Of a stretch of 64,000 nucleotides of DNA, positions 25,966 to 50,011 are shown in pieces. Position numbers and translations under genes: made by a program. Origin of the DNA: an uncultured Myxococcales bacterium (GTDB lineage Bacteria; Myxococcota_A; UBA9042); contig CAJBNH010000032.1 in the NCBI GenBank assembly GCA_903955385.1, positions 62,001-126,000 on the forward strand, written 5' to 3'. A model generated the notes under the pieces. The model was not told the origin of the DNA. It did not search any database and worked only from the letters and a program-made list of their open reading frames with translations. How positions within the stretch are numbered: the first letter of the stretch is position 1; each line of letters starts with the position of its first letter.

Positions 25966-26904
25966 TCAGGCGTCGAGCAGGGCGGCGTCGAGCAGTTCTT
26001 CGGCCAGATCCGGTCCGCCAAGGTCGCGGATCTCTTGGATTCCAGTCGGACTCGTGACGTTGATCTCGGTCAGCTTCTCGCCGATGAGGTCGATGCCCAC
26101 GAACAGGTGACCGGCGGCCTTCAGCGCGGGCCCCAGCTGGTCACACAGCGCCTGCTCGCGCGGATTGAGGGGCGCCAGCTCGACCCGCGCACCCACGTGG
26201 ATGTTGCCGCGCAGGTCGTCGGGGGGCGGGATCCGCAGCAGGCCCGCGCGGGCGACGCCATCGACCAGAATCACCCGCTTGTCGCCCAGGACGACTTCGG
26301 GCAAGTACTTCTGCGCCAAGATGAATTCGCGTCCGTTGTGGGTGCTCATCTCCAGCAGCGACCGGGTGTTCAGGTCGCCCGGGTGCAGCGCCACCACGCC
26401 GTTGCCGCCCGACCAGCCCAGCGGCTTGAGCACGATCGACCCGCCGACATCGCGTTGGAACTGCAGGATCGTCGCCATGCTGCGCGTGACCAGCGTGGGC
26501 GGCGCCAGCTCCGGAAACTTCAGGACGCTGACCTTCTCATTCCACGATCGCAGCGACTCGGGGCGGCTGAGCACCCGCGTAGGGGGCGGCGCCAGCTCCA
26601 GCACGTAAGTGGCGGCGATGTAGTTCAGATCGAACGGCGGGTCCTTGCGCATCCAGACGACGTCGAAGTCGCCCAGTGCGCGAATCGCCGTCGGTCCGTC
26701 GTGAAAGTGCGAGCCCCGCACCCGCTGCACCTGCGTGGGACGGCAGGTGGCGAATCCCCGACCCGACTGGCCGAACAGACCATCGGTGTCGCAGGTATGC
26801 ACTTCGTGGCCGCGCGCTTGGGCGGCGAGCATCAGCGCAAAGGACGAGTCCTTGGTGATGTCGATGCCGGCCAGCGGATCGACCACGAACAGATGGGCGA
26901 CCAT
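25966..26904 (-). CDS. gshB: Glutathione synthetase GshB
   Basis: 312 aa, matching the usual 315. It joins gamma-glutamylcysteine and glycine using ATP. Visible signatures are HLFVVDPLAGIDITKDSSF at the N-terminus, WMRKDPPFDLNYI, the ATP-grasp strand GSIVLKPLGWSGGNGVV and the C-terminal metal/ATP motif EINVTSPTGIQEI. The ATG at 26904 begins the standard family start; more upstream residues are Pro/Arg-rich and not coding. No gshA is visible in the window. The upstream OB-fold lipoprotein ends 25 bp away in the same orientation, so the two may be co-transcribed. Confidence 0.93.
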   Translation of the reverse strand: MVAHLFVVDPLAGIDITKDSSFALMLAAQARGHEVHTCDTDGLFGQSGRGFATCRPTQVQRVRGSHFHDGPTAIRALGDFDVVWMRKDPPFDLNYIAATYVLELAPPPTRVLSRPESLRSWNEKVSVLKFPELAPPTLVTRSMATILQFQRDVGGSIVLKPLGWSGGNGVVALHPGDLNTRSLLEMSTHNGREFILAQKYLPEVVLGDKRVILVDGVARAGLLRIPPPDDLRGNIHVGARVELAPLNPREQALCDQLGPALKAAGHLFVGIDLIGEKLTEINVTSPTGIQEIRDLGGPDLAEELLDAALLDA

Positions 26905-26929
26905 GGCGACCTCTTCCAGGGGCTGGGGA

Positions 26930-27610
26930 TTACTTGGCGGCGGGAGCCGGGGCAGGCGCGGCGGCCGGCGCAGGAGCCGCGGCCGGCGCGGGAACAGCAG
27001 CCGGGGCAACAGCGGGACCGGCGGGCGGCGCGGCGGCGGCGGCGGCGGCTTGCTCCACCGTCACTTCGGCGTCCTCGAGCAGCACGTCGTACAGGTAGCC
27101 GGCGCCCATGTCGCGGTCGACGCCCAGCTTGCCCTTGACCTTGACCAGATCGCCGCGTTCCGCGCTGCCGGTCACGCTGGTGACGACGAGCTTGCCCTCG
27201 GTGCCGTCGACCACATGGATCCAGTTCTTGCCCATGATGCCGCGGTTGACCTTGATGACGCGCCCGCGCACCTCAAACGTCTGGCCGCCCAGCGTTGCCT
27301 TGTTGGTGCGGACCTCGGCGACGGTGTGGTCGGCCTTGGCGACGGTGCCGATGTCGATCGGCTTGTCGGCGGGCAGCGCGGGGTGGCCACCCTCCGGCAT
27401 CGTGCCGCCCATCGCCGGGTGGGACGGGGGCATGGCGGGATTGGCTCCGGGGGGCAGGTCGGGGACGACACCGGCGGCGCCGGCGGGTGCGTTTTCCTGC
27501 GCGACGGCCTGGGTAGGCACCTCGGTGGCGCCGGGCTCGGCCTTGCGGCCACAGCCTACGAGGACCAGGGGAAGGGCGGCGAGGAGCAACAGTAGGGTGC
27601 GGATCGACAT
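26930..27610 (-). CDS. NrfJ-like OB-fold lipoprotein
   Basis: 226 aa. The lipoprotein signal ends LPLVLVGCGRK, with Cys as the lipid site. After a Pro/Ala/Gly-rich linker comes a compact beta domain: TVAEVRTNKATLGGQTFEVR, GRVIKVNRGIMGKNWIHVVD, LVVTSVTGSAERGDLVKVKG, GYLYDVLLEDAEVTVE. The GKVVKv-iMGKNWiHl-DGtg pattern is that of small periplasmic OB-fold proteins annotated near nitrite-reductase nrf genes (NrfJ-like), whose function is unclear. It ends in a long Ala/Pro repeat tail (about 45 residues). It is divergent from dinB and probably co-transcribed with gshB. Confidence 0.72.
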   Translation of the reverse strand: MSIRTLLLLLAALPLVLVGCGRKAEPGATEVPTQAVAQENAPAGAAGVVPDLPPGANPAMPPSHPAMGGTMPEGGHPALPADKPIDIGTVAKADHTVAEVRTNKATLGGQTFEVRGRVIKVNRGIMGKNWIHVVDGTEGKLVVTSVTGSAERGDLVKVKGKLGVDRDMGAGYLYDVLLEDAEVTVEQAAAAAAAPPAGPAVAPAAVPAPAAAPAPAAAPAPAPAAK

Positions 27611-30043: not shown

Positions 30044-33000
30044 TCAGCGCGTCAGCCGAACGACCTCGGCGGCGTCGATGCGGCGCAGGGCGGTCGCCCA
30101 CTCCGGGTAGGCGACGGGGGCGACGACGGCCGGCTGGGTGCGGATGCGCTTCACGAGGCTGCGCTGCGCACCGGCACCGGTAGATGTGCGTGAAAAGTGC
30201 ACATCCTGTGCGTCCAAGGCGACGTCGGCCTCTGCCGCCTTGAGGTCGGCGCCCAGACTGTGCACCGAGACACGCACCTCGTTGTCCAGCGTATGGCTGA
30301 ACAGCAACGGCATCTTGCGGTCGCCCACCGCGGTGTAGGCCTGACCGAGCTGGTCGGGGTAGAGCAGCAGCTCGAGGTTGTTCAGGCGTCGCGGATCGGC
30401 CGGCGCGTGGACGTGGTACTCGATGCCGACGGGTCCCGTTCCCGTCAGGTCCTGAAGACCCACCAGCTCAAGCGTCATGCCTGGGTAGGTGCTGCCGACC
30501 AGCTGGCTCAGGAGCTCGCTGCGGCTCTCTTCGGTCGACCCCACCAGCAGCGCGCGCACCAGAGCGCCCAGCGCGCCGCCCAGTCGCTCGCGGACCACCG
30601 CCTCGATCCGGCCGTCTGCGTGCCAGTCCAGCTCGACCTGCACGTCGCGGCGATCCTGACCCTCGCCCAGCGCCGGCACCGTCACGTGGGGGTCTTGCGG
30701 CGTTTGCGGGCAGCCGACCAGCAGCCCGGCGCGTCCTCGCAGCCCGGCGCGGATGTGGTTCAGCACGCCACCCTCCAGCCCCGGGTCGTACCAGATCTCT
30801 TGGGGCGACGCGGGGTTGGCACCGGGCACCCGCAGTCGCACCAGACTCATGCCGAAGTCGTCGGGGTCGGGCGGCGCGTTCGCCGGTGTGCGAGCCAGCG
30901 GCACGACCCGCACCAGACAGGCGTCAGTTCCCAGCCGACGCGCGATCGTCTGCAGCACCGACGCGCGGTCGCCCTTCTGATCCGTCAGCGCCGAGTCCGG
31001 CCGACCGGGAATGCCGCCACCGTGCTCGTTCTGCACCGCCCGCGCCAGACGCGCCGCCACCTGCTCCCAGCGTCCGCGCCCCTGCGGCAGCGCCCGCGCT
31101 TGCGCCACCCAGCGATCCAGCTCGTCGTCGCGCACGGCCAGCCACGCCGCCAGCGCCTCGTTCCACGGCTCCAGCACCGACGCAAGATCGACCTGGGCCG
31201 AGACACGCACCGACGGCAGGGCCGACTCCGGGCGCACCGACAGCGGCTCCAACCGGGCGCGGCGCATCGCGTGCGTGCGGAAGATGTGGGCGGTGTAGGC
31301 CCCGTCGCGGCGTACTTCGGGCGGAGGCACCGAGGGCGACGCGGCGTACTCGACCGTGACGCCGTCGGGAACCAGCACCACGAATTCCGCAAGCAGTGTT
31401 GGACCATCGACCGACTGCAGGATGAAGGGGGCAAGGCGCGTGGCGCCGGTGGCCGGGTCGTCGGGCGCAACGTAGACGACCTGAGCGTGCTCGACGGCCG
31501 TTCCCGCGCTGACCGCACGCAGCGACACGGTTTCCTTGTCCGCCGTCTCCGCCGGGGGAACCGACGTACCGTCTGCCATCCAGGTGCGGGCGAACTCGAG
31601 CTCGGCCCCGTCGCCGATGCGGACCTCGCCCACGTCGCCCGCCGCGCGGTCGTCCAGCACCCGCACGATCTGGTGCACCCGCCGCAAGGCACCGCCGCCG
31701 GGCAGCAGCACCACGATTTCCTGATCCAGCAGCCACGCCGTGCTGGCGCCGCGGAACAGCGCCTCGTCGTCTGGAACCACTGCGATGTCGCGCCCTTCGC
31801 GCCGCCATGCCTGCCACGGTGCCGAGGCCCCCGCCTGCAGCGCGCGCTGCCGCACGTCAAGCGCGACGTCGCGCCCCGTCAGCAGGTCCTGCAGCGACCG
31901 CTGCCAAGTCCCCGTCGCGCCTTGATTCCACGCAACCTGTGCGAGCTGCCAGCGCTCCTCTGTCTGGTCCCGCGACCACGGCAGCAAGGGAATCTCGGGG
32001 TCGGCCGAGCCCTGATGGAGCGCCTTCAGCCGCCGGAAAGCCTCGGTGGCCAGTGCCGGGGATTGCATCGCTGCTTGCAGCGCCTGCCGTGCTTCGGCCT
32101 GCTGGTCGACGGTGGTCAGCCCCTGCGCAAGCGATAGGGCCTTCTGCGGGCACAAGGGCGTCCGCGCCAGCACCTGCCGCGTGAGCGTCCGGTCCAAGCC
32201 GTCCAGACCCAAGGACAACGCTCGCTCCCACACATCGCAGTCGCGCGGTTGGGCATCGACGGCCAGCAGCGCCTCTTGCCCCGCATCATCCGTCAGTCCC
32301 AGGGCCAGCAGCACCTGACCGCGCTCGAGGGCAAGGTCGGCGCGGCGAGCCGCGGGCGAGGATGGCTGCGAGCGCGTCTCGCCCTGCGCGACCGGCGGGT
32401 CGGGGTCCTGCGGGCCGAGCTGCGTCAGCAGGCCGGTCAGCAAGTGCCATGCGTGCGCGGGGTTGCCGGCGTCGCGGACCTTGGCCACCCGGTCCACCTG
32501 GGCGTCGACGTGGTCCGGTCGGCTGTCGAGCACCCGGTCCAGCGCCGACAGCGGAGCGGTGGACTGCGGGTCCAGACCGGCCATCGCCTCGACCGTCAGC
32601 CACGCGGCCAGCGGGCCCTGCGGAAAGGTCGTGGCGAGCTCGGACCGCGCTGGACTGGCCGGCTGCAGCAGCGCAAGGGCGACTTGCCGCGCCGCCGCTG
32701 GCCAAGTCGTCGGAGGATGCGTCTCAGCCAGAGCAACGGTGGAAGCCGGAATTACATCCAATTCAACAGGTTCCGAGGTGTCTCCCAAAGCGGCGGCGAC
32801 GTCCAGTCGGTGCGGACCTGCGGTCAGCTCGACCCAGCCGCGCTGCAGTCGATCCGTGGGTCCTGTCCGGCCTGCGGCGTCGCCCGTCCACGGTTGACCG
32901 TCGAGCCACAGCCGCAGGCCGCGGGGCGCTCGTGCGACCAGATAGTGGGGACCCGCCTCTGTTTCAAAGGCCGCGCGCAGGGCGTACACGCCGGGATCGC

Positions 33001-33823
33001 GCACGGGCAGACGGTAGCGGCCGATCCGCAGCGACGCCGGCAGGGCACCCTGCTCCGCCTCGACCGGGAGCTCCAGCGCCTGACCGGAGGCTGGCGGGCC
33101 GACCGCCGGTGGCGAGTCGAACACCTCGGAAGGCTTCAGCATCGTGTCGAGGCCGGTGTGCAGGCGCCGTGAGACAGGCGCACTCCAGGCCTGCACCTGC
33201 AGCGGCCGACCGAGCGGCAAGGTGTCGCCCAGCCCAAGGTCGTCGGCCTGGGCCAGCAGGTTGCCGAGCGCGAGTCGCCGGCGCAGGGCATCGAGCGGAT
33301 GGCGCGCTTCCAGCAGTCGTTTCGTTGTTTGCGGTCGGTCGTGGATCGCCGCCAGCACGCCTTGCCGATCGCGCACGGCGAGGCGTGGCAGCGCCTCGGC
33401 GGTCAGCGTGCGCGCGACCTCTGCCGCCGCGATTGCCTCTTCGTTCACGGGAACGGTCGCCGCCAGCCGGTCTGCCGCGTCCGCCAGATCCAGCCAAGCC
33501 GCCGCGCGCCGTTGGATGTCCACGTCGCCTTGCAGCGCCAGCACCCGCAGCAGGTGTGGCAACAGACCGGGCACGGTCGCCGGAGCCAGTACCGCCCCCG
33601 CGTCGCCGTGGTCGCGCAGGTCGGCGCAGTCGATGTCGTGCAACAGGCACAACCAGCCGAGATCCTGATGCGCCGCAGCGCGTTGCAAGGGGTCGCCCAG
33701 ACGCTCGCGGGCGTCGTCGCGCAGCTTGGCGGCATCCACGCCGGGGTCGAACGCCGACAGCGGTGCGCCGCAGGCCGCCAGGAGCGTCAGACCCAGCCCG
33801 ATCAGCAGCAGGCGCGCGTTCAT
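30044..33823 (-). CDS. Large DUF3857-type lipoprotein with degenerate transglutaminase domain
   Basis: 1259 aa. Lipoprotein signal RLLLIGLGLTLLAAC with Cys at 18. Residues about 20-620 contain TPR-like helices and a beta domain resembling a sugar/ligand-binding fold. Residues about 680-880 are the DUF3857-like beta region (VVLLPGGGALRRVHQIVRVL, FVVLVPDGVTVEYAASPSVP). Residues about 900-1010 align with a transglutaminase fold, but the GDCKD block is replaced by QKGDRAS and the His position by GMSLVRLRV; only an Asp-like position (WYDPGLEG) survives. The start overlaps the upstream stop as ATGA. It is probably an enzymatically inactive paralogue of the protein encoded just upstream. Confidence 0.75.
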   Translation of the reverse strand: MNARLLLIGLGLTLLAACGAPLSAFDPGVDAAKLRDDARERLGDPLQRAAAHQDLGWLCLLHDIDCADLRDHGDAGAVLAPATVPGLLPHLLRVLALQGDVDIQRRAAAWLDLADAADRLAATVPVNEEAIAAAEVARTLTAEALPRLAVRDRQGVLAAIHDRPQTTKRLLEARHPLDALRRRLALGNLLAQADDLGLGDTLPLGRPLQVQAWSAPVSRRLHTGLDTMLKPSEVFDSPPAVGPPASGQALELPVEAEQGALPASLRIGRYRLPVRDPGVYALRAAFETEAGPHYLVARAPRGLRLWLDGQPWTGDAAGRTGPTDRLQRGWVELTAGPHRLDVAAALGDTSEPVELDVIPASTVALAETHPPTTWPAAARQVALALLQPASPARSELATTFPQGPLAAWLTVEAMAGLDPQSTAPLSALDRVLDSRPDHVDAQVDRVAKVRDAGNPAHAWHLLTGLLTQLGPQDPDPPVAQGETRSQPSSPAARRADLALERGQVLLALGLTDDAGQEALLAVDAQPRDCDVWERALSLGLDGLDRTLTRQVLARTPLCPQKALSLAQGLTTVDQQAEARQALQAAMQSPALATEAFRRLKALHQGSADPEIPLLPWSRDQTEERWQLAQVAWNQGATGTWQRSLQDLLTGRDVALDVRQRALQAGASAPWQAWRREGRDIAVVPDDEALFRGASTAWLLDQEIVVLLPGGGALRRVHQIVRVLDDRAAGDVGEVRIGDGAELEFARTWMADGTSVPPAETADKETVSLRAVSAGTAVEHAQVVYVAPDDPATGATRLAPFILQSVDGPTLLAEFVVLVPDGVTVEYAASPSVPPPEVRRDGAYTAHIFRTHAMRRARLEPLSVRPESALPSVRVSAQVDLASVLEPWNEALAAWLAVRDDELDRWVAQARALPQGRGRWEQVAARLARAVQNEHGGGIPGRPDSALTDQKGDRASVLQTIARRLGTDACLVRVVPLARTPANAPPDPDDFGMSLVRLRVPGANPASPQEIWYDPGLEGGVLNHIRAGLRGRAGLLVGCPQTPQDPHVTVPALGEGQDRRDVQVELDWHADGRIEAVVRERLGGALGALVRALLVGSTEESRSELLSQLVGSTYPGMTLELVGLQDLTGTGPVGIEYHVHAPADPRRLNNLELLLYPDQLGQAYTAVGDRKMPLLFSHTLDNEVRVSVHSLGADLKAAEADVALDAQDVHFSRTSTGAGAQRSLVKRIRTQPAVVAPVAYPEWATALRRIDAAEVVRLTR

Positions 33824-36800
33824 CGGGGCCTCCCGTCGTCCGGCGTCGGGGCGGGGCCCAGCACGGTCTCGTCGCGCAAACCCGCGTCAACACGGGTCAA
33901 CCAGGAGCGGAAGGCCGCGTAGCCGTCCTGCGGGATGTAGCGGGTCGTGACCTCGAACGACGAGACGATTCGGGCGTAGTCTCCGCGGAGGATGTCAGGC
34001 TTTCGCTCGGACGTGATCAGGAAGTGGCCGTAGGCGCAGTCGGTCTGCGGCGCGCTGGACAGCCGGACCGCCACCTTGGAGGAGCCCAACACGAAGACCT
34101 CTGCCGTGTCGCGAAACGCATACTCCAGCTGCAGCGGGTGCTTGCGGCCTTCCACGCGCGCAAGCTGGCTGACCAGCGGCCTGCCGGGACGCAGGGGGGC
34201 GACCGCGAAGTACCCGTCTGCGACCCGCGCCACCTGCGGCGCCGTCGCCTCGACCTTGACCTCGACGCGGTCGGCCGGGGGCTGGATGCCGGTCGCCTCG
34301 ACCTTGGTGACCGAAATGCCGGGAAAGCGCGGCGCCAGATCCTGCTCGATCCGCTCGCGCCGGGTCTCGGCGGTCGCCAACCTTGCGCGAACCTCGGCGG
34401 CGGGCAGTCCCTGCAGCGTCCACGTGATCTGGATCTTCGCTGCACCGTCCTCTGCAATCAGGAGTCCCAGCGCTTCGTGCCGCGTGTTCCGCTCTGGCCC
34501 AAACTCGGGCATCCGCACGATCTTTGCCTGTGGCGACGCGCCCTTGGCAGGCGGCACCAGCAACGCCATGCCCCCCGTGTCGCCGCCGGGCAGCTCAGTC
34601 GGGGCGTTGTACTGCGCTGTCGTGTCGACGAACCAGTCCAGCTCGGGCACGTACGCGATCGCGTGGTTGAAGACGCCCAGCGAGGCCACGTCGTCGTGCA
34701 GCCGCCCGAGATCCGACGTGCGCACCAGCGCCACCCGCGCCTCGACCCCCAGCTCAGCCAGCAGCGCCACCATCAGCGTCGCCTGGTCCTTGCAGTCGCC
34801 GAACTGGCGCTGGATCACCTCGCGCACGGCGTGGGGTTTCAGGCTGTGGATGCCAAACTCCAGGCCCACATAGCGGATCTGGCTGGCGACATAACCGTGC
34901 ACGGCGCGCACCTTCTGCTCGACCGTGGTCGCGCCCGCCCCCAGCCGCTGCGCCAGCTCCTTGACCATCGGGTCGCTTCCCGGTGCCGGCAGCGCCTCGG
35001 CCATCAGCCCGGCATACCAGCGGGCGGCCGCGTCCCAGGTCGCAAACGACGACAGGTGCAGGTAGGGCTGCACGTCGGTCACGCCCGGCATCCCGTCTTC
35101 AGACACATGCGCCGGCAGCGGCCCCACCGACAGCGTCCACGTGTCCCACGCGCCCTGGTCGTCGCTGGGTCCGGCCGTCGGCGTCTTCGCGGCCCGTGTC
35201 ATGGCCAGCGGCGGGGCGTCGGGACGGCGCGGGTCGACGTAGTGGTGGAAAAACGGTGTGCCTTCGAGCAGTTGAACGGCGATCGAGGTCTCTCGCACCG
35301 GCTGCTCGTCGCCCAGCACCAGCAGCTCGCCGAACACCAGGCCAAACGGCGTCGGCAGCAGGTCGCGCACCACGTACTCGGCCACGACCGCATCGCCGGG
35401 CCGCAGGTTGCGGAAGGTCAGGGTGGTCCGTTCCAGGTCGTAGTACATGCCCGACGCGTCTTCGCCAAAACGGTCGACGGTTTGCGGCACGTCGCGGTCG
35501 ATCCGGCCGTCCGCGCGCACGATCACGGCCAGCAGCACGTCGGCGCGCGACAGGCTGGGGGCGTACTCGATCTGCACCTCGCGGGAGGAGGGGCCGCCCT
35601 TGCCGACGTAGTGTACCTCGGCCTCGTAGCGGGCCTGCTGTCCGTTGCCCAGCGCTTGCAGCACCGTCTGTTGCAGCCGCGTCTCGAAGGGATACGGTCG
35701 GGGCAGCTTGGCCTCGGCGCGCACCAGGGCGACCAGATCCCGGCGCAACGGCGCGAAGAAGTCGCCGTCGGGACGGAGGATCTGCAGCCGAGCCCGCAGG
35801 TCGGCCCGCGCCGGCGCCCGCTGCAGGGCCGACCGCAGCAGTTCGATCGCCAGCGGCTTCTGCCCCAGACGTGCCGCGATGCGCGCCCGCAGCTCCAAGA
35901 CACCGGAATCCACCAGATGCGGCGGCAGCCGGTCCAACGCCTGCATGGCCAACGCCGCCTGCCCCCAAGACAATCTGGCGCGAGCGACAGAGGCCCAAGC
36001 CCGGCTGCGACCCGGGAACCGCCGGTCGAGGTCCGTCGCGATGCCCTCGGCCGTCGCCAGGTCACCCGCTTCGATGCGCGCGGCCAGATGGTTCAGGTGG
36101 CGCTCCAGCCGACCGGGCTCCACGGCCACCAGCTGCGCGTGCAGCAGGGCGGCCTCTGTCAGTCGGTCGCGGGCGGTGGCGTTGCGGATGCGGGCGGCCA
36201 GCAGCTCTGGAGCGTCGGGCCAGCGCTCGCCGCAGCGCTCCAGCAAGCGTGAGGCGATCAGGTCCGCGCTCAGCCGTGACCACAGGTCGGCCCGCACGAT
36301 GCACGCCCGCACCGACGATTCCTCTGGCCCCTTGCCGTGTTGGGCCGTCCACTCAGTCCAGATCTGGTGCGCGGCCGGGGTCTTGCCGATCTCGTCCAAC
36401 GCTTGGGCCTGCGCGACCATCAGCTCGGCCGCGTCGGGCAGCAGCTCGGCCCACGCGCGCAGCCGGTCGATGCGGTCGCCCGGCTCGCCAGCCAGCATCG
36501 CGTGTCCGAGAGCCGTCTGCGGATCGGGCGGCAACTCCTCGGGAAATGCGGCCAGCAGCCGCTCTGACAGCTCGACCGGCAACGGCCAGCCGTGCCAAGC
36601 CAGCGCCACCAGAGCCGCCAGCATTCCGGGTCGCGCGGCACGTTCGGGGTCGGTCGGCCAGACGAGCCCCAGCGCGGTGTCGCCCGGGCCCTGCGCAGGA
36701 CTCTGAACAAATTCGGCATGTTCCTGGGCTGGCGCGGAAGCCGAGGCGGCGGAGGGAGGCGACTGGGCGCAGCTCTCGATGGCCAGCGGTGCGTCACCGG

Positions 36801-37704
36801 GACCAGCAAAGGCCACCGCCAGAGGCAGCGTCGCGTCCGCTGGAGCCAGCTTGACCACCAGCCGGTGCCACCCGGCCGCAAGCAGCACCGGGACGTCATC
36901 GGCTTCGGGCAGCACGGCCGCAGTTCCGGCAAGACCGTACAGCGTGGGGCGGGCCGCCGCTTGCAGGACTCGCCGGCCATCCAGCCACACCCGCGCCGTC
37001 CCGTCGACGCCCAAGCGCAGCGTTGCGGGACCGGGGGTGACCGTGCGAAACCAGGCCTGCACAAACACGATGGCGTCGTCTGGTCGCTCGATCAGGGTTT
37101 CCAGCGGCAAGCGCTCCCCCGGACGCGCCAGCGACTCGGGCAACGGCTGCCACCCGACCCGTCCGGCCCGGCCCGGAAACGACGCCCGCAGAGGCGCAGT
37201 CAGCGCGGCACCGACGGCCTCGATCTCCTGCTCGACCTCGCCCTCGCGCGCAAACGCCGACCCGTGTTCGTCGCCGAACGGACCCAGCATAGACCAATGC
37301 TGCACGACGCCCTGCGCCGGTGCGTAGGCGCCGATCACATCGGTCCGGTCGGCCGCCAGCGCCGCCTGAATCAGCGTCGACCGCAGCACCCGAGCGACGG
37401 GACCGTTGCCGACCTTGCGGTCGCGTGTCCAGCGTTTCGCAGCAGGTTCAAGCAATTGCACGACCCGCCCGGGAGCCACCGCGCCCAGCGCGCGTCCCAC
37501 CTCCAACGCTTGGGCCATCGCACCGGGGGCGCCGACCTTGGCGGTCAGGGACTTGCACACCACGGTCAGTCGTTGGTCCTCAGCGCTGCGGTCGGCAGAG
37601 GCGGTCGGAGCCGCGCCAGCCAGCGTCGCCCACATCAACGCAACCGCTCCAAACAGGACCGCAGCGGCACGGACGGCGGGACGGGACGCAAGGAGGGGGG
37701 TCAC
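33820..37704 (-). CDS. DUF3857 and transglutaminase-like protein, secreted
   Basis: 1294 aa. Signal-like N-terminus (AAAVLFGAVALMWATLAGAA, no lipobox). Residues about 60-640 include a beta domain (PATLRLGVDGTARVWLDGRR) and TPR helices (WASVARARLSWGQAALAMQ). Residues about 680-850 are DUF3857 (REVQIEYAPSLSRADVLLAV, TLTFRNLRPGDAVVAEYVV). Residues about 930-1040 are a transglutaminase-like domain with a complete triad: Cys971 in QFGDCKDQAT, His1014 in VFNHAIAYV and Asp1027 in WFVDTTAQY. A C-terminal beta domain of about 200 residues follows. Such domains act as proteases or cross-linkers outside the membrane. It overlaps its neighbours on both sides by 4 bp (ATGA), so the three genes are translationally coupled. 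Confidence 0.85.
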   Translation of the reverse strand: MTPLLASRPAVRAAAVLFGAVALMWATLAGAAPTASADRSAEDQRLTVVCKSLTAKVGAPGAMAQALEVGRALGAVAPGRVVQLLEPAAKRWTRDRKVGNGPVARVLRSTLIQAALAADRTDVIGAYAPAQGVVQHWSMLGPFGDEHGSAFAREGEVEQEIEAVGAALTAPLRASFPGRAGRVGWQPLPESLARPGERLPLETLIERPDDAIVFVQAWFRTVTPGPATLRLGVDGTARVWLDGRRVLQAAARPTLYGLAGTAAVLPEADDVPVLLAAGWHRLVVKLAPADATLPLAVAFAGPGDAPLAIESCAQSPPSAASASAPAQEHAEFVQSPAQGPGDTALGLVWPTDPERAARPGMLAALVALAWHGWPLPVELSERLLAAFPEELPPDPQTALGHAMLAGEPGDRIDRLRAWAELLPDAAELMVAQAQALDEIGKTPAAHQIWTEWTAQHGKGPEESSVRACIVRADLWSRLSADLIASRLLERCGERWPDAPELLAARIRNATARDRLTEAALLHAQLVAVEPGRLERHLNHLAARIEAGDLATAEGIATDLDRRFPGRSRAWASVARARLSWGQAALAMQALDRLPPHLVDSGVLELRARIAARLGQKPLAIELLRSALQRAPARADLRARLQILRPDGDFFAPLRRDLVALVRAEAKLPRPYPFETRLQQTVLQALGNGQQARYEAEVHYVGKGGPSSREVQIEYAPSLSRADVLLAVIVRADGRIDRDVPQTVDRFGEDASGMYYDLERTTLTFRNLRPGDAVVAEYVVRDLLPTPFGLVFGELLVLGDEQPVRETSIAVQLLEGTPFFHHYVDPRRPDAPPLAMTRAAKTPTAGPSDDQGAWDTWTLSVGPLPAHVSEDGMPGVTDVQPYLHLSSFATWDAAARWYAGLMAEALPAPGSDPMVKELAQRLGAGATTVEQKVRAVHGYVASQIRYVGLEFGIHSLKPHAVREVIQRQFGDCKDQATLMVALLAELGVEARVALVRTSDLGRLHDDVASLGVFNHAIAYVPELDWFVDTTAQYNAPTELPGGDTGGMALLVPPAKGASPQAKIVRMPEFGPERNTRHEALGLLIAEDGAAKIQITWTLQGLPAAEVRARLATAETRRERIEQDLAPRFPGISVTKVEATGIQPPADRVEVKVEATAPQVARVADGYFAVAPLRPGRPLVSQLARVEGRKHPLQLEYAFRDTAEVFVLGSSKVAVRLSSAPQTDCAYGHFLITSERKPDILRGDYARIVSSFEVTTRYIPQDGYAAFRSWLTRVDAGLRDETVLGPAPTPDDGRPR

Positions 37705-39431
37705 GGCACTCCGAGTTCTTCGTGGATGAACGCGCGTCGGCCTTGGGCGTAGGCGCGGATCTCGTCGACGCGGTCGAGATACTCGCCCACGGACGAACGC
37801 TTACGCTTGTCAGCCAAAAAGTCCAACCGCAAGGTGCACAGGGCGGTTTCCAGGCGCTGGTCCAGGAAATCGGGGGCCAAGCCGGTGTCGGCGATCTGCA
37901 GGACGAATTGGAAGAAGCGCTTGCGGTAAGCGGGGTTTTCGAGCACGCGGTACACCTGGTTGTAGAAGCCGTGCGCCCCGGTGTCCAGGCCGACGTCGAG
38001 CGGCATTTGCGTGAAGATGGTCTCGTCGAGCACGTCCTTCTCCTCGGTCCACAGGTGGCCGAGCGTCAGGTCCAGGTCCCACGGAAAGAACACCCAGCGG
38101 TCGTCGGCCGCCGCCGGATCGCGGTACAGATAGAAGTTCTTGCGGATGTGCTCGTGGTTTTGCAGCACCGCCATGCCGGCGGCGTACGCCAGCCAGTCGT
38201 CGACGCGCAGTTGCTGGTCGATGGCGGCGGCAAACGCGTCCTTGGGCAGCTGCAACACGCCCTCGATCAAGGCGATCAGGTCGTCGAACACGTCCTTGGT
38301 CCCTGCTTGCTTGGCGTACACCTGCGCATACAGTTCCGGCGCCATCGGTGTCATCTTGCCGCCCGGCTCGACCGCCAGCTCGTTGGGCGGGTCGGACTCG
38401 TACAGGTTGCCGTCCGGGTTCAGCCCCCAGGCCTGCAGGAAGTCGCCGCCGATCCGCTGCACATGGTTCATCAGGCCGTAATAGCGCCCGTTGATGCGCA
38501 GGTGCACGTACTCGGTCTTGGGCGTCGGCAGCCAGGTGGTGGCGCGGTAGATCTCGTACGACACCCGAGTGCGCAGCATCGTCTTGTCGACGTACTCGGC
38601 GCGCAGAATCAGCTTGCGTTCCCCACTCTTGAGCTGCTGGCCCTTGGGCAGGTTCACGCGGAACGACTTCTTGGGCATCTCGGAGCTGGCACCGCCGTGC
38701 AGCCGAATCTCCGCCCCCGCGAACACCTGGCCCTCAGCCTTGAACGTCGCGGGGTAGTAGGTGCGGTCATACGGGTCGGCGACCATGGCCTTCCAGTCGA
38801 CCGGGGCTATCTCGACCTCCCAGATCGGCAGGGGACTGACGTAAGCCTCGAATTCGACGACGCCCTGACGACCGTCCGGCAGGCTGGCCGTCAGCGTGTG
38901 GCGACCCGCGGTGGCAAACGTCACCTTGGCCGTCGTCACGCCGGCCGCCGGCGTTCCCACGCTCACCACCGTGACCCCAGGCGTGCCGGTCAGCGTCAGG
39001 GGACCCGCGGCCTTGACGTCGGTGCTCTCGCTGCCGGGCTTGCGGATGCGGACGTCCAGCGTCTCGACCACCCCGACGGCCTGCAGCCACCCCGACCCGA
39101 CCAGCTCGATGTCGCCGGTTGCCGAAAGCTCTGGAAGCTCGAACTTGCCGACCACCGTCGGGCAGACGGGAAGGTCCACGTCTTGCGCAACCGGGAAAGG
39201 GGGTTGCGCATCGGCGGTCCAGCCCAGACCGTCGCTCGCCAACGTGTCGGCGACGTCCGCGGCTACGTCGGACCCCGCATCGGCCGTATCGGCGGCGTCC
39301 GAGAGCGCCCCGTCGGCGGCGTCGGCCGCGTCTGTTGCCTGCACATCGGGCGCGTCAGTGCCGGGCACGGGTTCCGGGGAACATGCGCCCAGAAGGGCAA
39401 GGACGAGGGCGATAGCGAAACGTCGGGGCAT
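37701..39431 (-). CDS. CotH-kinase-family lipoprotein
   Basis: 576 aa. Lipoprotein signal FAIALVLALLGAC, Cys about residue 17, followed by an Asp/Ala-rich linker typical of this genome's surface lipoproteins. A beta domain (about 90-200) precedes the CotH domain (about 205-560). CotH landmarks are EIRLHGGASSEMPKKSFRV, TYLYRDP-like FYLYRDPAAADDRWVFFPWD and DLDLTLGH; the Asp pair in WDLDLTLG is the metal/catalytic site of these atypical kinases. CotH of Bacillus phosphorylates spore-coat proteins. It is the first gene of a three-gene operon, overlapping the next by 4 bp. The target may be a secreted or surface protein of the cell. Confidence 0.85.
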   Translation of the reverse strand: MPRRFAIALVLALLGACSPEPVPGTDAPDVQATDAADAADGALSDAADTADAGSDVAADVADTLASDGLGWTADAQPPFPVAQDVDLPVCPTVVGKFELPELSATGDIELVGSGWLQAVGVVETLDVRIRKPGSESTDVKAAGPLTLTGTPGVTVVSVGTPAAGVTTAKVTFATAGRHTLTASLPDGRQGVVEFEAYVSPLPIWEVEIAPVDWKAMVADPYDRTYYPATFKAEGQVFAGAEIRLHGGASSEMPKKSFRVNLPKGQQLKSGERKLILRAEYVDKTMLRTRVSYEIYRATTWLPTPKTEYVHLRINGRYYGLMNHVQRIGGDFLQAWGLNPDGNLYESDPPNELAVEPGGKMTPMAPELYAQVYAKQAGTKDVFDDLIALIEGVLQLPKDAFAAAIDQQLRVDDWLAYAAGMAVLQNHEHIRKNFYLYRDPAAADDRWVFFPWDLDLTLGHLWTEEKDVLDETIFTQMPLDVGLDTGAHGFYNQVYRVLENPAYRKRFFQFVLQIADTGLAPDFLDQRLETALCTLRLDFLADKRKRSSVGEYLDRVDEIRAYAQGRRAFIHEELGVP

Positions 39432-39605
39432 GCAAGGCTCCCAAGAAATCGGGCGGGTGTGGAACTTTGGGACGACGGGTATCCGTCGGCACCATACACG
39501 CCGCGATCCGACCGTCAACCTCACCGAAACGCGACAGGTCGCGGCGCGGCGAAAGTCGTCGGGCGTCTCTACAGATCCAATTGCAGTGAATTGGGGAAAA
39601 AAAAG

Positions 39606-44336: not shown

Positions 44337-44392
44337 GCCCGGGTTTGGCGCGAGCACTTGGCTGCTCTTTTGCGCCGACCCTGAAGGACCTC

Positions 44393-47300
44393 ATGGCGAA
44401 CGCTGGCAGCCGGCTGCAAGTCCGCGCGTCGCTTGTGCTTTTGCCGCTTGCGCTTGTCGCGGCCTGCGCCAGCCCTGACCCGACGCCACCGTTGTCGGTC
44501 GTTTCCTACACCGGCACGACCGATCTGGGCGTGGTGCTGCCCGACGCGGCGACGGACACGGTCGAGCCCGAGCCGGACGTTCAGGACGCCACGGACGCGA
44601 CGGTCACCGACGCTGACGACGTCACGGCCACCACCGACGCCGACGTCACCGATGCTGCTGAGGACGTCCCGGACACCGACGATGCTCAAGCCGACGTTGA
44701 CACGACCCCCGACGTGCCACCGCCCGCGTGTCTGCAGCTGGGCTGCACCGACGGCAACCCATGCACCGACGATCACTGCGATGCGGTGACCGGCTGCGTG
44801 TTCACGCCCAACGCCTTTCCCTGCAGCGATGGCAACGCGTGTACGCAGGGTGACGCGTGCCAGAACGCTGCCTGCAAGCCCGGCGCGGCAGTCATTTGCA
44901 ACGACGGCAACGCGTGCACCAACGAGGTCTGCAATTCCGCGACCGGCTGCGTGTTTTCCCCCAACGCGGTCGCCTGCGACGACGGCAACGTGTGCACCTC
45001 GGGCGACGCCTGCAAGAACGCCTCGTGTCAGTCCGGCGTGCTGCAGGCTTGCGCCGACGGCAACGCTTGCACCCACGACGTCTGTGACGCCCAGTCAGGC
45101 TGCGTCTTCCCTCCCCGCAGTGGCCCCTGCGACGACGCCGACTCCTGTACCGTCAGCGACCTCTGCAAGAACGGCGCCTGCCAGCCCGGCCAGCCCATGC
45201 CCTGCGACGACGGCAACTTCTGCACCACCGATGCCTGTTTGAACGGCAAGGGCTGCGTCTTCTCGTTCACGACTAGCCCCTGCGACGACGGCAACGCGTG
45301 CACCTCCCAGTCCGCGTGCGCGCAGGGCGAGTGCGTCGGCACCGCCGCGACCGTGTGCAGCGACGGCAACGGCTGTACGCTGGATAGCTGCGACCCGACG
45401 AAGGGCTGCGTGTTCGCTGCCAACACGCTGCCGTGTTCCGACGGGGACCAGTGCACCCAAGGCGACGTGTGTGGTCAAAGCGCGTGTCAGCCCGGAGCCA
45501 AGATCGCCTGCAGCGACGGCAACGCCTGCACCGACGACACGTGCAACCCCCTGACCGGCTGCGTGTATGCGCCGAACACCGCGCCGTGCGACGACGGCAG
45601 CGCTTGTTCTTCGGGCGACCGCTGCGGCCAAGGGGCCTGCCAGCCCGGCACCGCGGTCACATGCACCGACGGCAACCTCTGCACCGACGACAGCTGCAAC
45701 CCCGCAGTCGGCTGCGTGTTCACCGCCAACACCGCGCCCTGTCAGGACGGCGACGCCTGCACCGTCGATGATGCGTGCGCTGCCGCAGCCTGCCGACCCG
45801 GCGCGGCGCGCACCTGTCAGGATGGCAACGCGTGTACCGACGACACGTGCAACCCTCTGACCGGCTGCGTGTATGCGCCGAACACGGTGGCTTGCGACGA
45901 CAAGGACGCCTGCACCAAGGGTGACGCGTGCCAGTCCGGCTCGTGCCAGCGAGGAACGGCCATCCCCTGCAACGACCAGAACCCGTGCACCGACGACACG
46001 TGCAACCCCCTGAGCGGCTGCGTATTTTCTGCCAACACCGCGCCTTGTGACGACGGCAGCGCCTGCACCTTGAAGGATGCGTGCCAGGGGTCTGCCTGCC
46101 AGCCCGGCGCCCCTCGCACTTGCGACGACGGCAATCTCTGCACCGACGACAGCTGCAACGCCGCCACCGGCTGCGCGGCCACGCCCAACACCGCCCCCTG
46201 CAACGACAACAGCGCCTGCACCCAAGGCGACCTGTGCTCTGGCGGGTCGTGCGCTCCCGGCGCTTTTCTGGTCTGTCAGGACGGCAATCCGTGCACCGAC
46301 GACGCCTGCAACCCTTCGACCGGCTGCGTGTTTTCCGCCAACACCGCCCCGTGTGACGACAGCAGTGCCTGTACGCTGAACGATGCCTGTCAGGGGTCGG
46401 CCTGCCAGCCCGGGGCGCCGCTCACCTGCAACGACGGCAACCCCTGCACCGACGACGGCTGCGAGGCTGCGACCGGCTGTATCGTCACGTCCAACGCCGC
46501 CCCGTGCGACGACGGAAACGCGTGTACTGCCAACGACGGCTGCGTGCAGGGCGCCTGCGTGTCCGGTGCGCCGCTTGCCTGTGACGACAAGAATCCCTGC
46601 ACGGACGACAGCTGTCAGGGCCAGCAGGGCTGCCTGCACGCGGCGAACACGGCGACCTGTGAGGATGGTGACGCCTGTACCCAAGGCGAGTTCTGCGCGG
46701 GCGGCGCATGTCAACCGGGCAAGGCCGTGACCTGCAGCGACGGCAACAACTGCACCTTCGACCTGTGCAACTCGATGACCGGCTGCGTCTTTCCCCCCAA
46801 CGACAACGCCGCGTGCGACCCGGGCGACCTGTGCGTTGCTGGCGGCACCTGTCAGGCCGGAAAGTGCCAGCCGGGCGCGGTGGTCTCGTGCGACGACGGC
46901 AACCCCTGCAGCGACGATGCCTGCGTCCCGGCCACGGGCTGCACCCACACGGCCAACACCGGCCCCTGCGAGGACAGCAACGCCTGCACGCTGGGCGACA
47001 CCTGTCAGGCGTTCGTGTGCATCCCGGGTGGCCAGAACATCTCGTGCACCGACGGCAATCCCTGTACCACGGACCAATGCGACCCGGCGCTAGGCTGCTC
47101 GTACCCGCCCGTCACCGGCACCTGCGATGACGGCAACGCCTGTACCCAGGCCGACACCTGTCAGGGCGGCAGCTGCGTGGGCGGTTCTGCGACCGTCTGC
47201 AACGACGGCAACACGTGCACCGACGATGCGTGTGGCCCTGCAACCGGCTGCTTCTTCACGAACAACGTGGCCTCTTGCGACGACGGCAATGCGTGCTCGA

Positions 47301-50011
47301 CCGGCGACAAGTGCGCGACAGGCAGCTGCTCTTCAGGCGCGGTGCTGTCCTGCCAGGACGGCAACCCGTGCACCGACACCAGCTGCGGCCCGGCAACCGG
47401 CTGCCAGTACCTGCCGATGGCCGGCCCCTGCGTGGACGGCGACGCATGCACAACGGGCGAGACCTGCGTCGGGGTCGTCTGCACACCCGGAGCCGCCGTC
47501 ACCTGTCAGGACGGCAACCCGTGCACGACCGACGCTTGCAACCCCGTCACGGGCTGCTCTTTCCAAGTCATCACGGGCGCTTGTGAGGACGGCGACGCCT
47601 GCACGAGCGGCGACGTATGCAAGTCAGGCACCTGCGTTCCGGGACCAGCGGTTGTCTGCACGGACAGCAACCCTTGCACCGACGACAGCTGCAGTTTCTG
47701 GCTGGGCTGCCAGTTCACGTCCAACAAGGCCCCGTGCGACGACGGAACTGCGTGCACGGTCGGCGACGGGTGCCTCAACGGCGTCTGCACTTCCGGAGCC
47801 CCGCCGAACTGCGACGACGGCAACGCCTGCACCGACGATGTGTGCAACCCCTTGGGCGGGTGCACGTCGACGGCCAATGCGTTGCCTTGCTCCGACGGCA
47901 ATGCCTGCACCAACGGCGACATCTGCAAGTCGGGTGCCTGCGCGACGGGCGCACCGCTGCCCTGCTCGGACGGCAACATCTGTACGACCGACTCGTGCAA
48001 CCCGCTGAGCGGCTGTGCCTTCCCCCAGAACACCGACCCCTGCGACGACGGCACTGCGTGCACGTTGGGCGACAAGTGCGCGGGTGGCTTGTGCAAGGCA
48101 GGTACCCCGCTGGTCTGCGCCGACGGCAATCTTTGCACCGACGATGTGTGCGACGCCAAACTGGGCTGTACCTATCCCGCCAACACGGCCGCCTGCGACG
48201 ACGGCAACAACTGCACCGGCCCCGACGTCTGTGCGGCCGGCGCGTGCAAGCCCCCCGTGATCACCTGCGACGACAAGGACCCGTGCACGATCGACGCCTG
48301 CCAGCCCGCCGACGGGTCTTGCACGAATACCTTCTTTCCTGGGCCGGGTTGTGTGCCCTCGATTCAGGGAACGGTCACCTACACCTGGGTCAACGCCAAC
48401 GACAGCATCACGGAGGGCGGGGCGCGTATCGAGTACGGCACAGCGGCGGACCGCCCGGCGCGACGCGTGCTGGTCGAGGCGATTGACGCGGCCGATGGCG
48501 TGACGTTGCGCGCGACCACGTCCACCGACGATCTGGGCCGCTATACCCTGACGACGCCGGCCGGCCTCCCGGTCAAGGTGCGGGTGTCGGCACGCGTTTC
48601 TAGCGCCGCCTACACGGCCGACGGGATTGGCGACGACAACTGCAAGGGCGCGTCGTTCGACTTCCAGGTTCGCGACAATACTTCGGGTTATGCGCTGTAC
48701 ACGATGGAGGGACCCGCCGCCGTGGCCGCACCGCTGAAGGGGAACGACCTGCACGCCGGGATGCAGTGGGACATCGCCTATCTGGACCGCACCGCCGCAC
48801 CTTTTGCGATTGCGGATACGGCGGTGACTGTGTTGGAGACCGTGTGTCAGGGCCAGGCGAACATCGCGCTGCCGACGCTTTGGTTGAACTGGGCGGTGAA
48901 CAACGTCGAGGTCAACGGCGACAAGACCAAGGGCCAGATCGGCACGGCGCATTACACGCGTGAGTCGATCGGCATGACGCTGCGCCCCGTCATCTACCTG
49001 CGGGGCAAGGAAGACTCGAACACCGACGAGTACGACGACCACATCGTAGCGCACGAGATGACGCACTTCCTGACCGACATGTTCTATCGCGACGACAGTC
49101 TGGGCGGCCCCCACGGCTACGGCGACAACCTGGACATGCGGGTGTCGTTCAGCGAGGGCACGGCAAATGCCTTTGCCTCCATGGTCTTGCGCGACCCGGT
49201 ACCGGTCGACACCTCGGGCTGGGGTCAGGCTGGCGGCTGGTCGTTCGACGTCAGTGAGGCGACGCTGCCGACCGAGCGGTCGATGCACAGCGAGTGGGGC
49301 GTGCAGCACTTCATGTGGACGCTGTGGGAGAATCGCGACGCCACGCTTCGCTCTGGCAGCTACGACCGTATCCACGCGGTGCTGGCGAGCACGGCCAGCA
49401 GCCCGGCGCTGATGACGGTGCTGACGTTCGCCGCCGCCTACAACGCAGCCTACGGCGCGACGGGCGACGACCTGAGCAACGTTTGGTCCACGTGGATGCG
49501 TGCGCCGTACAACGCCCTGTGCGTGGGGGCATGCAAGGGCTCGGGCGACGTGGCGGACCCGTGGGACAGCGATGCAGACATCGGTGTGGCCTACGCCACG
49601 GCGTTTGAGTACACGACCGGCACTGGCAAGAAGTACGCCCCCGGCTTCTGGACGGTGTATCCGCTGCTGTCATCGGGCACGCGCATCGGCGACGCGCACG
49701 AGCAGATCCACTTCGGCGTGCCCTTCGACTACTTCAACTGGTACGGCCCCAACCGCTTCTATCGCCTGATCGGCACTGGGGTATCGACCACGGTCGCCGT
49801 CGCCAGTCCCGTGGGCGGGACCTGCGCCCAGAACAATCTGGACATGCAAGTGTTGAGCGTGGGGACCTCGATCGCCTCGGACGGGTCGGCGACGGGCTGC
49901 CCCAGCGTCACGTTCACGCCAAAGGCCGGCGAGTCCTACGTTGTCTGGATCTACGCCCCGACAGGCGCCCCCGTCGAGCTGACGGGCTGGAACGTCGTGA
50001 GGACGCCATGA
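44393..50011 (+). CDS. Giant Cys-repeat lipoprotein with HEMTH metalloprotease-like domain
   Basis: 1872 aa; AAGGA precedes the ATG at 44393. A lipoprotein signal (SLVLLPLALVAAC) leads into an Asp/Thr-rich linker to about residue 115. Residues 118-1320 are 23 full units of 51 residues plus a half unit, each with eight Cys in a C-x-DGN-x-CT-x-D-x-C pattern, like the Dictyostelium CTDC repeat. Residues about 1325-1415 form a carboxypeptidase-regulatory-like beta sandwich (ARRVLVEAIDAADGVTLRAT). Then comes a zinc-metalloprotease-like domain with HEMTH (His1554, Glu1555, His1558) and SEGTANAF (Glu1588), a spacing seen in gluzincin-type enzymes. The repeats probably need disulphides and may bind calcium. 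A surface-anchored protease or adhesin is inferred. Confidence 0.82.
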   Translation: MANAGSRLQVRASLVLLPLALVAACASPDPTPPLSVVSYTGTTDLGVVLPDAATDTVEPEPDVQDATDATVTDADDVTATTDADVTDAAEDVPDTDDAQADVDTTPDVPPPACLQLGCTDGNPCTDDHCDAVTGCVFTPNAFPCSDGNACTQGDACQNAACKPGAAVICNDGNACTNEVCNSATGCVFSPNAVACDDGNVCTSGDACKNASCQSGVLQACADGNACTHDVCDAQSGCVFPPRSGPCDDADSCTVSDLCKNGACQPGQPMPCDDGNFCTTDACLNGKGCVFSFTTSPCDDGNACTSQSACAQGECVGTAATVCSDGNGCTLDSCDPTKGCVFAANTLPCSDGDQCTQGDVCGQSACQPGAKIACSDGNACTDDTCNPLTGCVYAPNTAPCDDGSACSSGDRCGQGACQPGTAVTCTDGNLCTDDSCNPAVGCVFTANTAPCQDGDACTVDDACAAAACRPGAARTCQDGNACTDDTCNPLTGCVYAPNTVACDDKDACTKGDACQSGSCQRGTAIPCNDQNPCTDDTCNPLSGCVFSANTAPCDDGSACTLKDACQGSACQPGAPRTCDDGNLCTDDSCNAATGCAATPNTAPCNDNSACTQGDLCSGGSCAPGAFLVCQDGNPCTDDACNPSTGCVFSANTAPCDDSSACTLNDACQGSACQPGAPLTCNDGNPCTDDGCEAATGCIVTSNAAPCDDGNACTANDGCVQGACVSGAPLACDDKNPCTDDSCQGQQGCLHAANTATCEDGDACTQGEFCAGGACQPGKAVTCSDGNNCTFDLCNSMTGCVFPPNDNAACDPGDLCVAGGTCQAGKCQPGAVVSCDDGNPCSDDACVPATGCTHTANTGPCEDSNACTLGDTCQAFVCIPGGQNISCTDGNPCTTDQCDPALGCSYPPVTGTCDDGNACTQADTCQGGSCVGGSATVCNDGNTCTDDACGPATGCFFTNNVASCDDGNACSTGDKCATGSCSSGAVLSCQDGNPCTDTSCGPATGCQYLPMAGPCVDGDACTTGETCVGVVCTPGAAVTCQDGNPCTTDACNPVTGCSFQVITGACEDGDACTSGDVCKSGTCVPGPAVVCTDSNPCTDDSCSFWLGCQFTSNKAPCDDGTACTVGDGCLNGVCTSGAPPNCDDGNACTDDVCNPLGGCTSTANALPCSDGNACTNGDICKSGACATGAPLPCSDGNICTTDSCNPLSGCAFPQNTDPCDDGTACTLGDKCAGGLCKAGTPLVCADGNLCTDDVCDAKLGCTYPANTAACDDGNNCTGPDVCAAGACKPPVITCDDKDPCTIDACQPADGSCTNTFFPGPGCVPSIQGTVTYTWVNANDSITEGGARIEYGTAADRPARRVLVEAIDAADGVTLRATTSTDDLGRYTLTTPAGLPVKVRVSARVSSAAYTADGIGDDNCKGASFDFQVRDNTSGYALYTMEGPAAVAAPLKGNDLHAGMQWDIAYLDRTAAPFAIADTAVTVLETVCQGQANIALPTLWLNWAVNNVEVNGDKTKGQIGTAHYTRESIGMTLRPVIYLRGKEDSNTDEYDDHIVAHEMTHFLTDMFYRDDSLGGPHGYGDNLDMRVSFSEGTANAFASMVLRDPVPVDTSGWGQAGGWSFDVSEATLPTERSMHSEWGVQHFMWTLWENRDATLRSGSYDRIHAVLASTASSPALMTVLTFAAAYNAAYGATGDDLSNVWSTWMRAPYNALCVGACKGSGDVADPWDSDADIGVAYATAFEYTTGTGKKYAPGFWTVYPLLSSGTRIGDAHEQIHFGVPFDYFNWYGPNRFYRLIGTGVSTTVAVASPVGGTCAQNNLDMQVLSVGTSIASDGSATGCPSVTFTPKAGESYVVWIYAPTGAPVELTGWNVVRTP
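44744..48352 (+). repeat. 23.5 tandem 153-bp units encoding CTDC-type Cys repeats
   Basis: The array runs from Cys118 to Cys1320 of the giant lipoprotein. Units 1-13 and 16-22 are 51 residues; units 14 and 15 are 52 and unit 23 is 50. Consensus: C-x-DGN-x-CT-x-D-x-C-(5)-GC, then a linker with N-T-A-P, C-x-DG-x-ACT-x-x-D-x-C, a short loop, C-x-PG. Near-identical DNA recurs two units apart: the stretch from 45535 reappears from 45841 (306 bp later) with one change in about 45 bases, and units 9-10 resemble 11-12, pointing to two-unit duplications. Confidence 0.92.

Follow-up and report, generated by a model that had tools for sequence, protein, structure and literature searches.

Transglutaminase-core enzymes are cysteine peptidases or transamidases, and pseudo-enzymes are often regulators of active paralogues. 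What, then, is the relationship between an apparently active transglutaminase-like protein and a sister lacking its catalytic residues, when both are encoded in one operon behind a protein of the CotH family? This question is raised by a minus-strand locus of an uncultured Myxococcales bacterium, located in the 64,000-nucleotide stretch of DNA analysed here (the window). The three proteins are a CotH-family lipoprotein (CotH), an exported protein combining a transglutaminase core with DUF3857, a domain of unknown function (TG), and a lipoprotein related to the latter (SIS).

The three linked open reading frames described in the initial annotation were all found on the minus strand, with unchanged coordinates (Table 1), and each shows a coding-type GC3 signal. 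The CotH frame comprises 607 codons and opens at 39524, its likely start being the ATG at 39431, which is followed by the lipobox LLGAC. ATGA overlaps had been proposed throughout; this sequence is present between TG and SIS, but the CotH/TG junction reads GTGA, and both are stop/start overlaps of 4 nt. Such an overlap is kept wherever CotH and TG are directly joined (6 of 6 junctions) and in 64 of the 93 junctions between TG and SIS, which excludes a chance origin.

Table 1. Features of the CotH/TG/SIS operon, in window positions.
Feature	Position	Strand	Remarks
CotH-family lipoprotein gene	37701..39431	(-)	PF08757 E 8e-47; 5jd9 CotH E 6e-19; lipobox read in translation
CotH Glu codon (P0001 E458), position of B. 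subtilis catalytic Asp228	38151..38153	(-)	5jd9 alignment
CotH Asp codon (P0001 D483), B. subtilis D251 equivalent	38076..38078	(-)	invariant in 13 orthologues
Overlap GTGA, CotH stop / TG start	37701..37704	(-)	
TG gene	33820..37704	(-)	1294-aa exported DUF3857-transglutaminase
TG catalytic Cys971 codon	34792..34794	(-)	invariant 19/19, 105/105
TG catalytic His1014 codon	34663..34665	(-)	invariant 19/19, 105/105
TG catalytic Asp1027 codon	34624..34626	(-)	invariant 19/19, 105/105
Overlap ATGA, TG stop / SIS start	33820..33823	(-)	
SIS gene	30044..33823	(-)	1259-aa lipoprotein, lipobox LLAAC18; predicted catalytically dead TG paralogue
SIS pseudo-active-site motif G951-D-R953, replacing GDCKD	30965..30973	(-)	G951, R953 invariant in family alignment

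TG consists of a signal peptide without lipobox, an N-terminal region, a TPR-like region, DUF3857, the transglutaminase core and a C-terminal domain. Its matches to DUF3857 (PF12969, 1e-10) and Transglut_core (PF01841, 1.5e-10) both exceed the Pfam cut-offs, and it is the sole PF12969 match in its genome. The full Cys971-His1014-Asp1027 triad attributed to this protein is borne out by conservation, as the three residues are unvarying across an alignment of 19 TG homologues and in all 105 TGs of a wider one. With both domains and the triad, TG is therefore predicted to be a DUF3857 transglutaminase-like enzyme. A search of the PDB with the TG sequence alone yielded nothing useful, and matching the family required profiles rather than a single sequence; the predicted model of the C-terminal half (pLDDT 91.9) has 3kd4 as its top PDB match (E 6e-31, TMt 0.79).

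SIS matches only DUF3857 in Pfam, at 0.02 and below the cut-off, and has no transglutaminase match. Profile-profile comparison of the family alignments with hhalign nevertheless shows homology with TG along 941 columns (E 2e-46), and SIS is thus a full paralogue. Together with the predicted model of its C-terminal half (pLDDT 95.7, pTM 0.91; top PDB match again 3kd4, E 3e-24, TMt 0.69), this indicates that SIS keeps the fold of DUF3857, transglutaminase core and C-terminal domain. Its description as a lipoprotein without the catalytic Cys and His is likewise upheld: none of 73 SIS proteins has Cys at the catalytic site, and 6 of 73 have H in the His-aligned column. The Asp (D1013) is kept; it is invariant in the window's family and present in 36 of the 73 proteins of the wider set. 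Where TG has GDCKD, SIS has xG[D/N/S/E/H]R or similar, the G of this pseudo-site being invariant over the 74 rows of the wider SIS alignment, and H717, G774 and G951 are invariant residues specific to SIS. The lipobox Cys18 is invariant among the 18 SIS proteins of the family alignment, and a lipobox pattern, albeit a crude one applied to uncertain starts, occurs in 59 of 93. At a mean column identity of 20% for SIS vs 37% for TG, SIS is the faster evolving protein. Judged by its residues, it is a homologue of the DUF3857 transglutaminase-like enzymes and not an enzyme of that kind.

The pairing of these two genes extends well beyond the window. Within the family and class to which the window belongs, nearly every genome with a sufficiently long contig has the TG-SIS pair, and outside the class TG lies directly upstream of SIS in 19 of 20 loci picked for strong SIS matches; in the remaining one (L139), SIS was found but TG was not called. 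When a public genome collection was scanned with the TG alignment, at least 79 loci were retrieved. Among the 79 matches listed, SIS adjoins TG in 64, Acidobacteriota included (Sulfidibacter, a Holophagae bin and others); 7 others run up to a contig edge or close to one. The 8 without adjacent SIS are mostly Myxococcaceae. Both genes are present on different contigs in three Myxococcaceae, Pyxidicoccus caerfyrddinensis, P. fallax and Myxococcus sp. CA023. A 199-genome sample centred on Sulfidibacter contained 19 strong SIS matches (E below 1e-115), most of them with a weaker same-strand match upstream, as expected of TG. A record titled as a Klebsiella pneumoniae MAG (CAMDBH010000104.1) also contains a TG gene, with 46% identity to that of the window; this record is probably a mislabelled or contaminated bin.

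Co-occurrence in other genomes, suggested as a check in the initial annotation, was determined for TG and SIS in a set of 96 Myxococcota genomes with a completeness of at least 90%: 44 have strong matches to both, one to TG alone, one to SIS alone and 50 to neither (Fisher p 4e-25, a value that ignores relatedness). The two exceptions are G049, with a broken contig, and G060, with a partial, diverged SIS match just downstream of TG. TG is adjacent to SIS, on the same strand and in the order TG-SIS, at 42 of the 47 SIS loci in these genomes. Co-occurrence in related genomes is not independent, and shared inheritance could be its source. The three genes are not unlinked in all relatives, and the proposal of an active enzyme with a non-catalytic partner gains strong support from the phylum-wide linkage and co-occurrence. 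In a tree of 34 pairs, a quick search with long branches on some rows, one branch with support 100 separates all TG from all SIS, which argues for a single old duplication and not for repeated inactivation; the inner groupings of the two sides are broadly similar.

The CotH gene follows a different pattern. Of 22 family genomes, 12 contain a close CotH orthologue (E below 1e-100). In 10, including the window's, CotH lies upstream of TG: 6 are joined directly with the 4-nt overlap, and in four genomes of group g10 CotH is near TG at a gap of about 1.2-1.4 kb. In a further genome (G038) CotH and TG both lie at contig ends, and in another (G041, 58% complete) CotH is present without TG seen beside it. 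In three of the g10 genomes (G051, G050, G049) one gene intervenes; this gene (L047 1952-3400, L089 5145-6566) looked M20-peptidase-like by eye, but Pfam gives no match and it is left unclassified. In 7 family members whose upstream region can be seen, the pair occurs without CotH, and no CotH was found beside it in the phylum-level loci inspected outside the window's family. CotH is therefore a later, optional addition in part of this family, and TG-SIS is the ancient core.

The description of the first protein as a kinase-like lipoprotein holds for its lipobox and its CotH domain, the latter well above the PF08757 cut-off (160.8 vs 23.8 bits). The Asp228 region of 5jd9, QNFDGFVHN, aligns with QNHEHIRKN in the window's CotH, and in 5jd9 this Asp sits 23 residues ahead of the PWD Asp, a spacing identical to that of D228 and D251. 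Because alignment and spacing agree, D228 corresponds to Glu458 and D251 to Asp483. The B. subtilis CotH mutants D228Q and D251A are inactive (PMC7821199). Five of 13 CotH orthologues, the window's among them, have Glu at the Asp228 position, and the remaining proteins with a cleanly readable motif have Asp. With Glu in place of the catalytic Asp228, the window's CotH is at most a putative kinase. The Bacillus CotH/CotB/CotG phosphorylation module (PMC7821199) likewise combines a CotH-fold protein with surface-system partners encoded alongside it; here, in contrast, the kinase-like protein has Glu at Asp228 and the partners are transglutaminase-like. No CotB/CotG-like serine-rich substrate was noticed near the window's operon.

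A conserved substrate gene near the pair had also been suggested as something to look for, and none emerged when the neighbours of 119 loci were clustered: TG and SIS formed the only general cluster, the remaining clusters consisting of generic Ser/Thr kinases, a UbiA enzyme or lineage-local genes. Several features of the surroundings are recorded here in their own right. A glutathione synthetase gene (gshB) lies at window positions 25966-27009 (-). Several relatives (L034, L040, L043, L046, L086, L088) have its homologue close to the operon or in divergent orientation to it, so that local synteny is partly kept. The 1888-aa product of the gene at 44345-50011 (+) contains 24 cysteine-rich repeats of the Dicty_CTDC type (PF00526) and is a possible candidate for a surface substrate; in g4 relatives a similar large gene is convergent, just downstream of SIS. 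In CotH-less g4 genomes (L035-L038), a PEGA-domain gene precedes the pair, as does a run of genes upstream of TG that resemble, by eye, respiratory (alternative complex III-like) components.

How these proteins act together can be read in several ways. The initial annotation envisaged a surface system with phosphorylation and with cross-linking or cleavage of a protein. In a three-part version of it, the target of CotH would be SIS, TG or a substrate common to both, and its phosphorylation would gate cleavage or cross-linking. The tight junctions between CotH and TG and the invariant D251-equivalent Asp are consistent with this reading, but at least 7 family members, like every other locus inspected, have a complete pair and no CotH, and Glu stands at the Asp228 position in 5 of 13 orthologues where other cleanly readable CotH proteins have Asp; such a system is thus not general, and we consider it unlikely to be the basis of the locus. 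Somewhat less probable still are co-expressed but independent proteins, SIS being a binding protein with a separate role and CotH a hitch-hiker. SIS does have invariant residues of its own, and there is no other conservation among the neighbours; however, co-occurrence is near-perfect, and TG and SIS are both kept after unlinking.

That SIS might be a functionless, decaying duplicate would fit the loss of its catalytic residues, yet this reading is already contradicted by conservation and is scarcely credible: full-length SIS frames form one clade across two phyla with a confident predicted fold, and both the pseudo-site motif and the gene order are conserved. We favour, with a probability of roughly 0.6, TG and SIS as an obligate enzyme/pseudo-enzyme pair at the cell envelope, to which CotH was added in one part of the family. 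Against this reading stand the faster evolution of SIS, the relatedness of the genomes in which the genes co-occur and the recovery of the crude lipobox pattern in only 59 of 93 SIS proteins.

In this obligate pair, TG would be exported by its signal peptide, and DUF3857 would serve as the platform for its active, papain-like Cys-His-Asp site. SIS, which stems from one ancient duplication of the shared architecture, has lost Cys and His and would carry a lipid anchor, and coupled translation would supply the two in matched amounts. Most likely, SIS would bind TG and hold it at the outer membrane, and it may regulate TG or present a substrate for cutting or acyl transfer; anchoring and regulation at the envelope are suggested by the invariant lipobox Cys18. 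In part of the window's family, the CotH-type lipoprotein placed in front would probably modify the pair or its substrate. Gene structure, homology, fold, loss of residues, linkage and co-occurrence come from the data themselves, whereas we infer the physical TG-SIS complex, its membrane location, its chemistry and the role of CotH. More tentatively, Myxococcota and Acidobacteriota may share a hitherto undescribed two-component envelope machine in which the lipid-anchored pseudo-transglutaminase activates or positions the exported enzyme, control by a CotH-type kinase being secondary and confined to one lineage.

Among known proteins, the top structural match of both C-terminal halves is BDI_1141 of Parabacteroides distasonis (PDB 3kd4, 'putative protease'). 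It appears to share the Cys loss with SIS, as GTPLE stands opposite GDCKD of TG in the profile alignment; it differs from TG and SIS in its 505 residues, its origin in the Bacteroidota and the lack of a large N-terminal half. The only solved DUF3857 structure found thus appears to be a Cys-less member despite its protease annotation. TG resembles other DUF3857/Transglut_core proteins (PF12969 and PF01841) in having both domains and an intact triad, but adds an obligate dead partner and a TPR-containing N-terminal half, neither of which was found described in the searched literature. That literature covered transglutaminases in combination with DUF3857, pseudo-enzymes of the transglutaminase type and myxobacterial transglutaminase systems, and it contained nothing relevant and no account of a comparable active/dead pair. 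Plain genome searches already show DUF3857 genes in tandem, as in the several neighbouring short copies in Acidobacteriota, so that the kind is not new; what is undescribed, as far as the searched papers show, is an active/dead pair that is ancient and obligate and has an architecture of its own.

The inheritance of the pair across two phyla points to an undescribed partnership of enzyme and pseudo-enzyme at the envelope. Its deep conservation provides a concrete hypothesis for Cys-less DUF3857 proteins, namely that they may serve as partners or regulators, and this hypothesis is directly testable in culturable myxobacteria, which keep the TG and SIS genes.
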